From NCBI GenBank assembly GCA_028689145.1, contig JAQTWT010000003.1, positions 1-64,000 on the forward strand: 64,000 nt of DNA, given 5' to 3'. Positions within the stretch are counted from its first letter, which is position 1. Each line of letters opens with the position of its first letter. Origin of the DNA: Gallionella sp. GTDB lineage: Bacteria > Pseudomonadota > Gammaproteobacteria > Burkholderiales > Gallionellaceae. The notes below the pieces were generated by a model, which had not been told where the DNA came from, searched no databases, and saw only the letters and a list, made by a program, of their open reading frames with translations. This document shows positions 25,828 to 49,121 of the stretch, one piece after another. The translations under genes and the position numbers were made by a program.

Positions 25828-26289
25828 ATGAACTACCAAGCCAAAATAAAATCGCCGTTCGGCGTACTCGGCATCCGCAGCAGCGATGCGGCGCTGACCG
25901 GCATCGACTTCCTGCCGTCAACCACCAAACCGCAACACGCCACCAACGCTCTGGCAGAGGCTGTATGTGAGCAGTTACTAAACTATATTGAGAATCCCGA
26001 CGCGCCATTTTCCGTACCACTGGAACTGCACGGCACCGCGCACCAGAAAAAAGTCTGGCAAGCCATGCTGGACATCCCGCGCGGCCAAACGCGCAGCTAC
26101 GGCGAATTGGCCGCCGAACTGAAATCCTGCGCACAGGCCGTCGGCCAAGCCTGCGGCGCGAACCCGATCCCGGTCATCGTCCCCTGCCATCGCGTGGTAG
26201 GCAAAGCAGGCTTGGGCGGTTTCATGAAACACGCCGACGGCGATCCGCTCGACATCAAGCGCTGGCTGTTGGCACATGAACAACGCTGA
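25828..26289 (+). CDS. ogt: Methylated-DNA--protein-cysteine S-methyltransferase
   Basis: 'NPIPVIVPCHRVVGKAGLGGF' active site; ATG at 25828. Confidence 0.92.
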   Translation: MNYQAKIKSPFGVLGIRSSDAALTGIDFLPSTTKPQHATNALAEAVCEQLLNYIENPDAPFSVPLELHGTAHQKKVWQAMLDIPRGQTRSYGELAAELKSCAQAVGQACGANPIPVIVPCHRVVGKAGLGGFMKHADGDPLDIKRWLLAHEQR

Positions 26290-27172
26290 ACTGCTCGACG
26301 AGTTCTGCGACAACTTGTGGCTGGAAGACGGCCTGTCGCGCAACACGCTGGACAGCTACCGGCGCGACCTGACCAAGTTCGCCGCATGGCTGGAGAAGCA
26401 GCGCGGCCTGACCATTCTGCAAACCTCGCACGGCGATATACAGGGCTTTCTCGCCCACCTGTTCGTCGAACAGAAAGCCAAACCGAGCAGCACCGGGCGC
26501 AACATCTCCAGCCTCAAGCGGCTATTCCGCTACCTGCTGCGCCAAGGCAAAATAAGCGCCGATCCCACCCTACAGATCGACACGCCCAAGCTGCCGCGCA
26601 ACCTACCCAAGAGCCTCACCGAACAGGATGTCGAGCAACTGCTCGATGCGCCGGATACCCAGACCCCGCTCGGCCTACGCGACCGCACCATGTTTGAAGT
26701 GCTGTACGCCACCGGCCTGCGCGTCTCCGAGCTGGTCACGCTGCGCGTCACGCAGGTGAGCATGGACATGGGCGTGGTGCGCGTGATGGGCAAGGGCAGC
26801 AAGGAACGCCTCGTGCCGCTCGGCGAAGAAGCACTGGACTGGTTGCGCCGCTATCTGGCGGACGGACGCGGCGTGTTGCTGGGCAGACAGATGACCGACG
26901 CGCTGTTCGTCACCGCCAGAGGCGAAGGCATGACTCGGCAGATGTTCTGGTACCTGATCAAGAAGCACGCCAGAACCGGCGGCCTAAACAAACCAATGTC
27001 GCCGCACACCCTGCGCCACGCCTTCGCCACGCACCTGCTCAACCACGGTGCTGATTTGCGCGTGGTGCAGATGTTATTGGGTCATGCGGATATTTCCACC
27101 ACGCAGATTTATACGCATGTGGCGCGGGAGAGGTTGAAGCAATTGCATGCGATGCATCATCCGAGAGGGTAG
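26276..27172 (+). CDS. xerD: Tyrosine recombinase XerD
   Basis: 298 aa; 'LYATGLRVSELVTLR', 'SPHTLRHAFATHLLNHGADLRVVQMLLGHADISTTQIYTHV'. Confidence 0.92.
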   Translation: MNNAELLDEFCDNLWLEDGLSRNTLDSYRRDLTKFAAWLEKQRGLTILQTSHGDIQGFLAHLFVEQKAKPSSTGRNISSLKRLFRYLLRQGKISADPTLQIDTPKLPRNLPKSLTEQDVEQLLDAPDTQTPLGLRDRTMFEVLYATGLRVSELVTLRVTQVSMDMGVVRVMGKGSKERLVPLGEEALDWLRRYLADGRGVLLGRQMTDALFVTARGEGMTRQMFWYLIKKHARTGGLNKPMSPHTLRHAFATHLLNHGADLRVVQMLLGHADISTTQIYTHVARERLKQLHAMHHPRG

Positions 27173-38573: not shown

Positions 38574-39223
38574 TGGCAAGCAAGCAAATTCTGGTGGTGG
38601 ATGACGAGATCGGCATCCGCGAATTATTGTCGGAAATATTGTTCGATGAAGGCTATCAGGTGCATCTGGCGGAAAATGCCGCGCAGGCGCGTGCTTACCG
38701 CAACGAACATGAACCGGACATGGTGTTGCTCGACATCTGGATGCCGGAGACCGATGGCGTAACTTTGCTGAAGGAGTGGGTCGAGCAGGATCTGCTGACC
38801 ATGCCGGTGGTAATGATGTCCGGACACGGAACCATTGAAACGGCGGTCGAAGCGACACGCATCGGCGCAGTGGATTTTCTGGAAAAGCCCATCGCGCTGC
38901 AAAAGCTGCTGAGCACGATTGCCAAAACGCTTAAAGAGGGAGCGTCCAAGCCGCAGATGCCGGACACCGAGGCGAAAGTCCAGGAAATCACCATGGATAT
39001 CGACGGTGAAATGCTGTCATTTTCTTTGCCGCTGGATTTGCCGTTGCGCGAAGCGCGCGATCATTTTGACGCGCTTTACTTCAACTACCATTTACGCAAA
39101 GAGACCGGCAATGTCTCGAGGGTGGCCGACAAGGTCGGCCTGGAGCGCACCCATCTGTACCGCAAACTGAAGCAGCTGGGGATTAAATTCGTCAAGAAGG
39201 GCAGCGAAGACCGGCAGCAGTAG
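38573..39223 (+). CDS. NtrX-position response regulator: REC + Fis-type HTH, no AAA+ domain
   Basis: 'ILVVDDEIGIRELLSEILFDEGY' REC; C-term 'GNVSRVADKVGLERTHLYRKLKQLGIKF' HTH; 217 aa. Confidence 0.88.
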   Translation: MASKQILVVDDEIGIRELLSEILFDEGYQVHLAENAAQARAYRNEHEPDMVLLDIWMPETDGVTLLKEWVEQDLLTMPVVMMSGHGTIETAVEATRIGAVDFLEKPIALQKLLSTIAKTLKEGASKPQMPDTEAKVQEITMDIDGEMLSFSLPLDLPLREARDHFDALYFNYHLRKETGNVSRVADKVGLERTHLYRKLKQLGIKFVKKGSEDRQQ

Positions 39224-39326
39224 CACCGGCAAACCGGCAAATCAGGCACAACGTTATCCCCCTATTATTCCTACAAGCGGGGAAAACTTTGCTTGAAAAT
39301 CACTGAAAAAAGGCTTTTTCTACAGC

Positions 39327-39389
39327 GGTTAACGTAAAGCTAAGCGGCGCGCCGCTTTTGGCGCGTCTCGCTTGAGCGAGAGGTTAGGC
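39327..39389 (-). mobile_element. attC-like integron cassette recombination site (attC-1)
   Basis: Minus strand: GCCTAAC-CTCTCGCTCAAGCGAGACGCGCC-AAAAGC-GGCGCGCCGCTTAGCTTTAC-GTTAACC; RYYYAAC/GTTRRRY cores, TCAAG/CTTA asymmetry and long imperfect stem. Confidence 0.78.
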
Positions 39390-39663
39390 TTGAAGATGAC
39401 TCTACAAGTCGCCCCGATACAAACTTGTGAAGGACACTGGCGATCAGCGTCTGATATGGCAAACCTTCTTCAAGTGCCCGGGCTTGAATATCCATCAGGT
39501 CAGGTGTTGTAAGGCGGATATTCACCCGTTTTTCCTTGAGAAAAGTTGCTGTGGCGGCAGCCTTGAATTTCGCCAGCTTGGCTTTTGAAGGGGAGGTTGT
39601 TTTTAGCTCCCCCCTTTCATATGCGGCCAAAACGTCTTTCTCAAACGCATCAAGTTTTTTCAT
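39340..39663 (-). CDS. BrnA/CopG-like ribbon-helix-helix antitoxin
   Basis: 107 aa; 'VNIRLTTPDLMDIQARALEEGLPYQTLIASVLHKFVSGRL'; 4 bp after the toxin-like ORF. Confidence 0.72.
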   Translation of the reverse strand: MKKLDAFEKDVLAAYERGELKTTSPSKAKLAKFKAAATATFLKEKRVNIRLTTPDLMDIQARALEEGLPYQTLIASVLHKFVSGRLVESSSSLTSRSSETRQKRRAA

Positions 39664-39667
39664 TTCG

Positions 39668-39943
39668 TTACTCCTTAAGCAAGTAGTCCCTCGTAGCTTT
39701 TCTGCTGGGAATTACTGTTTTCAAGAAATAGTAATCCGGCTCTTCAACGTAAGGTACCAAGTAAACATAACCCTCAAGTGCCACGACAAAAACAGATTGG
39801 TTTGGATATTTTTCCGTGTTTGGGTGGCGCAACTCATCCAATAAGCCATCGGCTTCAATCGCGAGAACTATTTCTTCAAACGAAATACTGCGCTCAACTT
39901 TCAGCGCTTCGTTTTTATCGTGATTCCAGCGAAATGGTTTCAT
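39668..39943 (-). CDS. BrnT-like toxin
   Basis: 91 aa; 'FRWNHDKNEALKVERSISFEEIV...VFVVALEGYVYLVPYVE...LKTVIPSRKATRDYL'; toxin-first order as in BrnTA. Confidence 0.65.
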   Translation of the reverse strand: MKPFRWNHDKNEALKVERSISFEEIVLAIEADGLLDELRHPNTEKYPNQSVFVVALEGYVYLVPYVEEPDYYFLKTVIPSRKATRDYLLKE

Positions 39944-40022
39944 TTGGCAAGCTTACTGCAATGTGTGCCTATTGTCACCTTTTGGCGTTTGGTGTTAAAA
40001 CCGTAAAACTGGGGACAGCATG

Positions 40023-40088
40023 CTGAAGCAGTTGGGGATTAAATTCGTCAAGAAGGGCAGCGAAGACAGGCAGCAGTAGCACCGCCAA
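40023..40088 (+). repeat. Duplicated 3'-end fragment of the ntrX-like gene (copy 2)
   Basis: 63/66 identity to 39167-39232: CTGAAGCAG(C/T)TGGGGATTAAATTCGTCAAGAAGGGCAGCGAAGAC(C/A)GGCAGCAGTAGCACCG(G/C)CAA. Confidence 0.95.
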
Positions 40089-40097
40089 TGTAAAAGT

Positions 40098-40130
40098 GAA
40101 GGGCTGCGAAGACCGGCAGCAGTAGCGCAA
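40098..40130 (+). repeat. Third partial copy of the ntrX 3' end
   Basis: GAAGGGCTGCGAAGACCGGCAGCAGTAGCGC versus GAAGGGCAGCGAAGACCGGCAGCAGTAGCAC. Confidence 0.85.
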
Positions 40131-40195
40131 GGCTGCATTTGAAAGTGTTGGTATTTTTATCGGTAGCGCGCGCTGCGCGCCGGGACACACTAAAC

Positions 40196-40219
40196 GGAAG
40201 CCTGCCTAATCAGGCTTCC
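40196..40219 (-). terminator. Hairpin overlapping the stop codon of the GGDEF gene
   Basis: GGAAGCCTG-CCTAAT-CAGGCTTCC, followed on the minus strand by GTTTAG. Confidence 0.5.
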
Positions 40220-41129
40220 AGACTATCCGGTTGCGCCCGCGATGCTTCGCCTCGTAGAGCATGGCATCGGCGGTTTCGATGATGCTCATGGCAGCATCGT
40301 TCCCGCCGCACACTGTCACCCCCCCGATGGATACGGTGACATGGGGTGCCGCGACAGAAGCTTCATGCGGGATTGCCAGTTGTTCCACCCCGTCGCGCAC
40401 TTTTTCGGCGATCTCTCGCCCGCCCGCCACATCGGTATCCGGCAGGATCAACACGAATTCTTCGCCGCCGTAACGGGCGGCAAAATCGGACGGACGCCGC
40501 AGCGACCGGGTTAACACGCGCGCCACCATTTTCAAGGCCGCATCGCCGCTGGCATGGCCGTAACGGTCGTTGTATTGCTTGAAGTAATCGAGATCGAGCA
40601 TGACCAGCGAGAACGGCTGGGCATTGCGCTGGTTGCGTCCCCACTCGCGCTCCAGCGTTTCGTCGAAGCGGCGACGGTTGGCGATCTCGGTCAAGCCATC
40701 CCGCCCCGCCAAAACTTCCAGCATCTTGCGCTGGCGCACAAAACCCAGAATATTCGCCACCCGGACTTGCACGATGGCCGGACTGAACGGTTTGCCGATG
40801 TAGTCGCAAGCGCCCAGCCGCAGGCCGCATTCTTCATCGCCGACCGTATTGAGCGCCGTAATGAACATGACCGGAATATCCTTGGTTTTACTGTTGTCCT
40901 TCAGGCGGCGCAGCACCTCGTAGCCATCCAGCTCCGGCATCATTACGTCGAGCAAAATCAGGTCGATCTCCTGCTCCTGCGCCACCCGCTCCAGCGCCTG
41001 CTGGCCGTTCTTGGCCAGCAACACGCGATATTCGCCCTTGAGCAATTCGGACAACACGGCCAGATTCACCCGCTCGTCGTCAACGACGAGTACCGTCTGC
41101 CGTTGCTCCTGCCTGTTGCCACAACTCAT
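40206..41129 (-). CDS. Response regulator with GGDEF output (diguanylate cyclase, REC-GGDEF)
   Basis: 'VLVVDDERVNLAVLSELL', 'RYGGEEFVLILPDTD'; start chosen at MSCGNRQEQ. Confidence 0.88.
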   Translation of the reverse strand: MSCGNRQEQRQTVLVVDDERVNLAVLSELLKGEYRVLLAKNGQQALERVAQEQEIDLILLDVMMPELDGYEVLRRLKDNSKTKDIPVMFITALNTVGDEECGLRLGACDYIGKPFSPAIVQVRVANILGFVRQRKMLEVLAGRDGLTEIANRRRFDETLEREWGRNQRNAQPFSLVMLDLDYFKQYNDRYGHASGDAALKMVARVLTRSLRRPSDFAARYGGEEFVLILPDTDVAGGREIAEKVRDGVEQLAIPHEASVAAPHVTVSIGGVTVCGGNDAAMSIIETADAMLYEAKHRGRNRIVWKPD

Positions 41130-41195
41130 GCGCCCTCCCCAGATTCGCCATCCGTTTTTCCGCCAGAGCCGTCGCGACCTCGAGGTAATAATAAA

Positions 41196-41298
41196 GGGAT
41201 AGACCCCGAGGTTTCCATTAACGTCAATCACTCGAGAAACCTGAACCGACAGAAACCGGGGACACTGCAGGCTTCAGGAAACCGTGGTCTGTCCCCTA
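41196..41298. repeat. REP-like pair GGGATAGACCCCGAGGTTTCC / GGAAACCGTGGTCTGTCCCCTA
   Basis: 41196-41216 and its inverted relative at 41277-41298; a further copy at 42077-42095. Confidence 0.7.
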
Positions 41299-41304
41299 TT
41301 GTCC

Positions 41305-41562
41305 CTACCGCTTGGCGGAGAGAAAAGCTAGGCCACCCACCACAACAGCCCCGAAGATTTGCACGAGCAATGTCTTTACGTTTACGCTCGCCGGGATCGA
41401 TGAACCAGACTGCATCGCGTATGACGGAAGGTCAAACAAGAAACCGTACCCGGCCATTATTGTTACCGCCCTGTAGTTCTCAACTATGTAAGGCGGGAAT
41501 ATGACCATCAGGGCAACTACACCAGCAGTAGCTATAAGAATCTTTCGTTGCGTCTCGTTCAT
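41305..41562 (-). CDS. Small integral membrane protein, probable integron gene-cassette protein
   Basis: 85 aa 'MNETQRKILIATAGVVALMVIFPPYIVENYRAVTIMAGYGFLFDLP...LLVQIFGAVVVGGLAFLSAKR'; starts 22 nt after attC-2 on the minus strand. Confidence 0.7.
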   Translation of the reverse strand: MNETQRKILIATAGVVALMVIFPPYIVENYRAVTIMAGYGFLFDLPSYAMQSGSSIPASVNVKTLLVQIFGAVVVGGLAFLSAKR

Positions 41563-41583
41563 GTGGATGACCTCAATGAAAAC

Positions 41584-41643
41584 CCCCAACGTAAAGGTAA
41601 GAGGCTCGCCGTAGGCGAGTCCTGCTTGACCGACAGGTTAGCC
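41584..41643 (-). mobile_element. attC-like integron cassette recombination site (attC-2)
   Basis: Minus strand: GGCTAAC-CTGTCGGTCAAGCAGGACTCGCC-TAC-GGCGAGCCTCTTACCTTTAC-GTTGGGG; aligns with attC-1. Confidence 0.82.
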
Positions 41644-41812
41644 GCACGCCTGAATAAGACGCGGTTTTTTGGAGAGCTAAAAATGGAAACGTATCTCACG
41701 GAAAAGCCAATATCTGCCGGTGAAAATATAGAGGCGAATAGTTTTGAAGAAGCCAACAACAAGGCCGAAGAATTAGGGCTTAAAGTTGTCGGCGTTCTTG
41801 AGTCAGAACACT

Positions 41813-41995
41813 TCAAGACCCCTTGTAACCGTTGCGCTGTGCATTGGCAACGCAATCGGATTTATTTACGTATCCTTGAGTGGATGCTCCTACAATATTT
41901 CCGTTTGATGCAGTCCTACGCCAACGCCACTCGCTTTTTGGGTCTTTATAGAATTCCCATTTGTCACCGGCGACACTATTGATAAGCCCTGCCAT
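41813..41995 (-). CDS. DUF1508/YegP-like small protein
   Basis: 60 aa 'KWEFYKDPKSEWRWRRTASNGNIVGASTQGYVNKSDCVANAQRNGYKGS'; AGGAGG ribosome-binding site upstream on the minus strand. Confidence 0.8.
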   Translation of the reverse strand: MAGLINSVAGDKWEFYKDPKSEWRWRRTASNGNIVGASTQGYVNKSDCVANAQRNGYKGS

Positions 41996-42076
41996 GATTA
42001 CCCTCCTTGGTTGTGCTACGGTTGATGAAACTAAAGCGGCTAACGAAGCTGCAGAATAATTGGGTGCAGAATAATT

Positions 42077-42095
42077 GGGGGCAGACCACGGTTTC
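42077..42095 (+). repeat. REP-like motif GGGGCAGACCACGGTTTCC
   Basis: Inverted relative of 41277-41298. Confidence 0.7.
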
Positions 42096-42278
42096 CCTTT
42101 CTACAGCCAGCTTTCGCGAACCATATCCCCCAATACCCAGCCCGTCAATATGCCGAAAGGCCTAATTTTCTGACGGTCGGCTGCGACTCAATACGCCAAG
42201 GGGGAAGCTATCCTGAATTGACTCCCCCGCCTGTGCCGCGCTTTTGTTTATAATCCGCCATCTTCAGGAAGCCGCACA

Positions 42279-43643
42279 ATGAAACCATTGCAAATCGTTA
42301 TTCTCGCTGCCGGCAAAGGCACGCGCATGTATTCCGAAAAACCCAAGGTGCTGCATGCGCTGGCGGGCAAGCCGCTGGTGCAGCATGTGCTGGACTGCGC
42401 GGTGGCGTTGCAGCCGCAGCAGGTTTGCGTGGTGTACGGACACGGCGGCGAAGCGGTGCCGCAGGCGATGCGGCAATATCCCGCGCAATTCGTGGTGCAG
42501 GAACCGCAGCTCGGCACCGGCCACGCGGTGCAGCAAGCCATGCCGCAGCTCGCCGATACCGGGCAGGTGATGGTACTGTACGGCGATGTGCCGCTGATCC
42601 AGCACAGCACTTTGCACCGGATGCAGCAGGCGGGCGACGGTCTGGTGCTGCTGACGGTGAATCTGGCTAACCCGACCGGTTACGGGCGCATCGTGCGCAA
42701 CGGGCAGGGCGATGTGCTCGGCATCGTCGAGGAAAAAGATGCCTCGCCGGAACAGCGCGAAATATGCGAAGTGCATACCGGCATCCTGCTGGCTCCGGCC
42801 AAGCAATTGCGCGAGTGGCTGAACAAATTGCGCAACGACAATGCGCAGGGCGAGTATTACCTGACCGACGTGGTCGGCATGGCGGTGCAGCAGGGCGTGA
42901 CGGTGCATACTGTGCAGCCTGCGCACGAGTGGGAGATCCACGGCATCAACAGCAAGGCGCAACTGGCGGTATTGGAGCGCACCTGGCAGCAGGTGGAAGC
43001 GGCGCGCCTGCTGGCGCTCGGCGTGACGCTGGCCGATCCGGCGCGCCTCGATGTGCGCGGTAAGCTGAAGTGCGGGCAGGATGTCGAGATCGATGTCGGC
43101 TGCATTTTCGAGGGCGAGGTGAGCCTCGGCAACAACGTGCAAGTGGGCGCTTACAGTGTCATCCGCAACGCGGTCATTGCCGACGGTACGATCATCGCTC
43201 CTTACAGTTCGATCGACAGCAGCGAAGTGGGCGCCAACTGCCGCATCGGCCCGTATGCGCGGCTGCGCCCCGGCAGCAAACTGCACGACGAGGTGCATAT
43301 CGGCAATTTCGTCGAGGTCAAGAACAGCGAGATCGCGCTGGGCAGCAAAGCCAATCACCTCAGCTATATCGGCGACAGCACGGTGGGCAGCCGGGTCAAT
43401 ATCGGCGCAGGCACCATCACCTGCAATTACGACGGCGCGAACAAGTACCGCACCATCATCGAAGACGATGCATTTATCGGCTCGGACACGCAGCTGGTTG
43501 CGCCGGTGACGGTGGGCAAGGGGGCGACTATCGGCGCCGGTTCCACCATCACCAAGGATGCGCCGGCGGGCGAGCTCACCCTGTCGCGCAGCAAGCAGAT
43601 CACCATTGCCGGATGGAAGCGGCCACAAAAAGGAAAAAAATAG
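42279..43643 (+). CDS. glmU: Bifunctional GlcNAc-1-P uridyltransferase / GlcN-1-P acetyltransferase
   Basis: '[29 protein letters not shown]', hexapeptide C-terminal domain. Confidence 0.97.
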
Positions 43644-48272: not shown

Positions 48273-49121
48273 TTAATGCAGGGTAGTTTGTTGAATGCCG
48301 GCCAGCAGCCATACCGACTTGTTGTCGCGCAGGTTTTTCTGCACGTGCCAGATTTCATCGACGCTTTCCGGCGTGCCGTTGTTCTCGCGCAGTTGTCCGG
48401 TGAAGCGCACGCTGGCAATCGCCAGATCGCCTTCCTCGACCGCTTCCAGCAGTTCGCCGTTGATAGCGACCACGTCGGTTTTTTGCGGCGCATCGTCGCG
48501 TTCCTGCATCTGCATCGAAATTTCCGCGAACATTTCCGGTGTGGTGTATTCGCGGATGTCGTTCAGATCTTTGCGGTCATTGGCGGCCTGCAGGCGGATG
48601 AACGAAGTCTTGGCGCTGCGCAAAAAACTTTCCACCGGAAAATCGGCAGGAATGCGGCCGGTTGTTGAAGACGTTGCGACAGGCGCTACCGAACCGCCGG
48701 ACAATGGCTGCTGCACCGGTTGCGATTCATGATAGGGCGCACCCGCTCCGGCATATTGCATCGCCGGTTGCTGTTTTTTGCGGAACTTCGAGATCAGGAA
48801 CATTACCGCGACACCGGCCAGCAGCGCCATCAGAATACCGCCCATTGCGCCGCCCATGCCCATGCTGGCGAACAGCGCGCCCAGACCGGCACCAATCGCC
48901 AGACCTGCCAGCGGCCCCATCCACTTGTTACCTGCCGCTGCCGGAGCTGCGCCGGGAGTCGGCGCGGGCGCAGCAGCGGGAGCCTTGGGCGCGGCTTGCG
49001 GAGTCATGCTGCGTTGCTTGCCAAAGCTGCTGCCACCACCAAAACGCTTGGCTTCAGCCGTCGCGGCAAACAGGCTCGCACTGGTCAGTGCAATCGCTAA
49101 CAGCAATAAAAATCGTTTCAT
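48273..49121 (-). CDS. Tim44-like domain protein
   Basis: 282 aa; signal peptide, Gly-rich TM region, C-terminal 'FLRSAKTSFIRLQAANDRKDLNDIREYTTPEMFAEI'. Confidence 0.88.
   Translation of the reverse strand: MKRFLLLLAIALTSASLFAATAEAKRFGGGSSFGKQRSMTPQAAPKAPAAAPAPTPGAAPAAAGNKWMGPLAGLAIGAGLGALFASMGMGGAMGGILMALLAGVAVMFLISKFRKKQQPAMQYAGAGAPYHESQPVQQPLSGGSVAPVATSSTTGRIPADFPVESFLRSAKTSFIRLQAANDRKDLNDIREYTTPEMFAEISMQMQERDDAPQKTDVVAINGELLEAVEEGDLAIASVRFTGQLRENNGTPESVDEIWHVQKNLRDNKSVWLLAGIQQTTLH

Follow-up and report, generated by a model that had tools for sequence, protein, structure and literature searches.

An intI-less integron cassette remnant between ntrX and glmU in a Gallionella genome

Clusters of attC sites without intI (CALINs) are well described (IntegronFinder 2.0, PMC9024848). 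In Xanthomonas, a sedentary integron occupies a site at ilvD, where intI has been repeatedly inactivated, and CALINs are found elsewhere (PMC12444791). Insertion at attG sites, as far as it is described where PMC12444791 cites Loot et al. 2024, could also yield chromosomal cassettes without a local intI. The locus reported here lies between ntrX and glmU in a Gallionella sp. genome, within a window of 64,000 nucleotides (the whole stretch of DNA that was analysed). It resembles published CALINs in its chromosomal location, its few cassettes, at least two complete attC sites and the absence of a nearby intI, but differs from them in holding just two complete attC and one half site, in containing a long GGDEF unit and repeated copies of the ntrX end, and in having an intact IntI elsewhere in the genome. 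With the Xanthomonas system the Gallionella genus shares a conserved platform site, frameshifts and deletions in intI, and CALINs at recurrent loci; unlike that system, the genus carries intI at several sites, with a mismatch between clade and site. Compared with attG insertion, insofar as the citing paper presents it, the window units sit at the gene that hosts the platform in relatives, and clean attG junctions were not found. The literature searched contained no integron survey for Gallionella or the Nitrosomonadales, only a passing mention for Ferriphaselus, and no link between glmU and chromosomal integrons.

The original prediction had named two attC-like sequences, and both were found on the minus strand exactly where it had put them, together with a third, partial site.

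39327..39389, minus strand: attC-1, complete attC; R'' GCCTAAC at 39389-39383, R' GTTAACC at 39333-39327; E 4e-13 (model R1)
41584..41643, minus strand: attC-2, complete attC; R'' GGCTAAC at 41643-41637, R' GTTGGGG at 41590-41584; E 2.3e-13 (model R1)
40084..40107, minus strand: probable attC-3, 3' half only (GCAGCCCTTCACTTTTACATTGGC), with a mutated core, directly abutting an ntrX 3'-end copy

The identity of the complete sites was examined with two covariance models. R1 was built from 14 attC taken at loci with intI in other genomes within the genus, with the window's own genome excluded, and encodes the classical R''-L''-L'-R' pairing plus three one-sided unpaired bases. It matched the window at 41585-41643 (57.5 bits) and 39328-39389 (56.6 bits), the next best match reaching 11.9 bits; one intI-linked attC of the same genome scored in this range (58.1 bits). 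The arms of attC-2 are paired, and its three extra bases, all one-sided, occupy the canonical positions. R2, derived solely from class 1 plasmid attC (five sites), ranked attC-1 first (23.0 bits) and attC-2 second (22.4 bits), with a weak margin over a third, unrelated match at 48933-48981 (21.6 bits). Both sites were full-length R''-L''-L'-R' matches under either model; low scores at both would have counted against the prediction. In the genus attC alignment the pairing covaries: 94.9% of cells are paired and 10 pairs are changed on both sides, compared with 33-53% in slid controls. By folding energy alone attC-1 and attC-2 do not stand out, falling just ~2 sd below shuffles, and no window match was returned by Rfam at the gathering threshold. 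The modest folding energy, along with REP-like repeats nearby, could be taken to mean that the two sites only look like attC and are REP elements, terminators or hairpins arising by chance. Against a background of 12 bits, model scores of ~57 bits rule out that identity for both sites, as does the 58.1-bit intI-linked attC of the same genome, and this reading is extremely improbable. Judged by structure and score, attC-1 and attC-2 are genuine attC sites, and they are predicted to recombine: the bottom strand of each attC would fold, and an integron integrase would cut G|TT in R'.

Because the full attC covariance model, run on the local stretch, did not report the attC-3 half site, a weight matrix of the attC 3' half was used. 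It gave 19.8 bits for attC-3, which has no R'', and 9.9 bits for the best non-attC place in the window; its maxima were 14.5 in 174,846 other genome positions and 15.6 in 20 shuffles. The earlier two-site picture holds for both of its sites, but it had overlooked this half attC, a cassette start at 42044 and the duplicated ntrX ends described below.

Read on the minus strand from glmU toward ntrX, the order is cassette A, attC-2, unit B, the attC-3 half, ntrX-end copy 2, a toxin-antitoxin pair, attC-1 and ntrX.

41590..42043, minus strand: cassette A, beginning after the G of GTTAGCC (42044-42038) and ending in attC-2
41813-41995, minus strand: DUF1508-like ORF of 60 aa in cassette A (PF07411, 27.5 bits, cut-off 22)
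40089..41589, minus strand: unit B, between attC-2 and attC-3, with a small membrane protein and a GGDEF gene
41305-41562, minus strand: small membrane protein ORF
40206-41132 or longer, minus strand: response-regulator/GGDEF diguanylate cyclase (GGDEF 172.7 bits, Response_reg 87.7 bits)
39340..39943, minus strand: unit C, toxin-antitoxin; weak Pfam matches below cut-off
39668-39943, minus strand: BrnT-like toxin
39340-39663, minus strand: CopG/BrnA-like antitoxin, its C-terminal tail encoded by attC-1

Within 39300-42300, GTTAGCC at 42044 is the sole sequence starting in GTT that pairs 7/7 with the R'' of attC-2. It follows the rule that a cassette start (GTTRRRY) is complementary to the cassette's own R''; for unit B, the R'' of attC-3 is gone. 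At the other end, the R'' of attC-1 forms just 5/7 pairs plus one wobble with the GTTGGGG after attC-2, and no cassette start matching it was found before the toxin-antitoxin pair. The DUF1508 protein of cassette A had no match in other genomes of the family. In unit B, the small membrane protein has a possible start at 41562, ~21 nt after attC-2, close to the 22 nt that had been claimed; two weak homologues occur in the family, with no attC near either, and none in viral contigs. The GGDEF gene is candidate cassette content only, by its position in unit B. The toxin-antitoxin pair had been described as ending in attC-1, and the antitoxin stop codon indeed lies inside that site. Homologous BrnT/BrnA cassettes occur in the glmU integron of a relative (L040, the locus of genome G005); they too end inside attC, with the antitoxin tail attC-encoded. 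The locus is thus a CALIN, with two complete attC 2.2 kb apart, one fragment and three units (DUF1508; membrane protein plus GGDEF; BrnT/BrnA-type toxin-antitoxin), as the original prediction had proposed: covariance models, cassette layout and relatives all support a CALIN-like cassette remnant. As integron remnants go, it is clear-cut but rather unremarkable.

The 3' end of ntrX recurs within the array.

39159..39232, plus strand: ntrX 3' end, copy 1 (end of the functional gene)
40015..40088, plus strand: ntrX 3' end, copy 2, 92% identical to copy 1, between attC-3 and the toxin-antitoxin pair (compared with the ntrX ends of G016 and G042)
40098..40126, plus strand: ntrX 3' end, copy 3 (partial); overlaps the half site attC-3

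The duplication suggests at least one further recombination event. Copies 1 and 2 flank the toxin-antitoxin unit and share only 92% identity, as would be expected if homologous recombination had brought in that unit and attC-1 along with a foreign ntrX end, with the attC-2 unit arriving in a separate event. The locus would then be a SALIN pair, two independent solo attC insertions with the GGDEF gene between them being ordinary chromosome; unit B is also, at 1.5 kb, large for a cassette, and it lacks a complete attC. This account, which overlaps with the attG explanation considered below, is doubtful, given that the two sites share strand and attC type, that a half attC lies between them, and that a BrnTA cassette stands within the glmU array of G005.

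The locus had been predicted to lack an integrase, and the recombinase at 26.3 kb to be an ordinary XerD.

26276..27172, plus strand: xerD, no integron integrase (TIGR02225, 392.8 bits, cut-off 329.6; under the IntI cut-off)
L006:15514-18046 (G000:C13:30513-33045): a complete integron, also chromosomal, on another contig of this genome; a yejF-like ABC transporter gene comes a few nt past the intI stop codon

The XerD assignment was confirmed by its score, and no intI lies near the attC cluster, XerD being the only such enzyme in the window. The lack of an integrase holds for the window but not for the genome, which encodes a full-length IntI with an attC array on contig C13. This IntI is intact (349 aa; TIGR02249, 493.5 bits, cut-off 265), and three attC lie upstream of its gene on the opposite (minus) strand. 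Every cassette start there pairs at 7/7 positions with its own R'', which supports the rule as applied to cassette A. Elsewhere the genome has four additional solo attC at scattered positions (C22:28737-28798, C16:84874-84933, C6:141970-142027 and C17:153-232), one of them at a contig edge. Since the C13 IntI is tied to attC of the same type, it could in principle excise or shuffle the window cassettes in trans, and it may still act on them. With a live IntI and a stranded array in the same genome, reactivation in trans is open to testing.

A gene next to the array is the anchor of an integron site in relatives.

42279..43643, plus strand: glmU, anchor gene of the relatives' integron site (TIGR01173, 629.9 bits)
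42238..42278, plus strand: glmU leader/promoter segment (GCTTTTGTTTATAATCCGCCATCTTCAG...), located in relatives directly after the intI stop codon

In L150, L040 and L107, the region of the intI-glmU spacer is 84-87% identical to the leader and glmU start of the window. An IntI above cut-off was present in 31 of the 61 genomes of the genus and attC in 56 of the 61, the latter bearing out the expectation that attC of this type would recur in the genus; chromosomal integrons are thereby documented throughout the iron-oxidising bacteria of the Gallionella group. At the glmU site, intI ends ~53-70 bp before glmU in G005, G007, G050 and G057, with the cassettes on the opposite strand. A BrnTA pair stands between intI and glmU in G012, the two matches abut or overlap slightly in G019, and intI lies 0.8 kb upstream of glmU in L043. 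Degenerate versions are also found: residues ~90-313 are deleted from the intI before glmU in G054 and L055 (near-identical deletions in L193 and L055, two genomes), a stop splits the gene into a pseudogene in G059, and only N-terminal fragments are left in G049 and L039. In both G054 and G059, a dead glmU site coexists with an intact intI elsewhere. glmU is therefore a recurrent integron site in the genus, with a natural decay series at one site that runs from intact intI through frameshift, internal deletion and fragment to attC only. The window has the layout of a glmU-site integron minus intI.

The best reading of the locus, to which we assign a probability of about 0.6, is that a chromosomal integron of the glmU site survives here as a remnant without intI. 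The ntrX-glmU gap would then be a stranded cassette array, and its intI, formerly situated immediately before glmU, would since have been lost. This reading draws on the attC identity, an orientation and order matching those of the relatives' glmU integrons, repeated decay at the site, the BrnTA cassettes of G005, the intact IntI of the same genome, and the parallels in G054 and G059. It draws further on a GlmU tree in which the window and the sister genome G016 pair (99*) and group with G005 and G050, where intI is intact, at SH-aLRT 81. It is weakened because this tree support is moderate, because no trace of intI or attI was detected between 42044 and 42279, so that intI, attI and attC do not occur together at the window locus, and because the site has been rearranged. 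In relatives with no integron there, atpC usually precedes glmU; in this genome, atpC is 89 kb away and glmU is preceded by ntrX, a gene normally followed by tkt. In addition, intI from several clades is found at the glmU site, so that the platform need not have a single ancestry.

The missing intI/attI trace also makes a serious contender of the main rival explanation, by which cassettes were inserted after ntrX and glmU became neighbors, by the C13 IntI acting at intergenic attG-type (non-attI, non-attC) sites. ntrX was seen before glmU only in this genome and in G016, where the two genes are 86 bp apart with no cassettes in the gap, so a later insertion is possible. The four further solo attC in the genome fit such a history, as does the direct contact of attC-3 with the ntrX 3' end at the crossover position, and attG insertion is established in E. 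coli according to the citation of Loot et al. 2024 in PMC12444791. Insertion of this kind would nevertheless have had to place the units in the same orientation beside the very gene that is the integron site of relatives, and a clean pair of empty and filled sites was not found. We regard it as possible but unlikely, and an origin of the array in a glmU platform, not in later insertions, as probable.

Across the genus, intI was also found just before different genes, namely nagZ, a yejF-like gene, the ndk/rlmN region, the hemH region, ruvA and glmU.

L119, L121-L123, L126-L127, L129-L134, L136-L137 and L160-L161: loci showing the varied intI sites

The clades of intI are not congruent with its chromosomal sites, which looks as though platforms move or are swapped. 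Inspection by eye revealed no shared boundary motif behind intI at these different sites. A more speculative and rather improbable proposal for the genus is that whole platforms relocate among a few recurrent sites, with intI placed before the start of a housekeeping gene and dead arrays left behind; the ntrX-glmU junction might itself be IntI-made, by attC x attG recombination between the ntrX 3' end and a former glmU array. The recurrent intI sites with incongruent clades are the unusual part of these data and the one most worth following.

Several small repeats were noted around the array. The sequence after attC-1, GTTAACCGCTGTAGAAAAA (39306-39332), resembles that after an attC in L040 and L152 (GTTGACGCTGTAGAAAAA) and is perhaps the end of a small element targeting attC. 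A repeat-like sequence after attC-1, GCTGTAGAAAAA, has the same neighbor in two relatives; with a trailing T-run it is present just once in this genome. An inverted REP-like repeat, GGAAACCGTGGTCTGTCCCC, flanks cassette A and the membrane-protein gene (41277-41300 and 42073-42096) and also occurs near integrons of relatives (L149 and L042).
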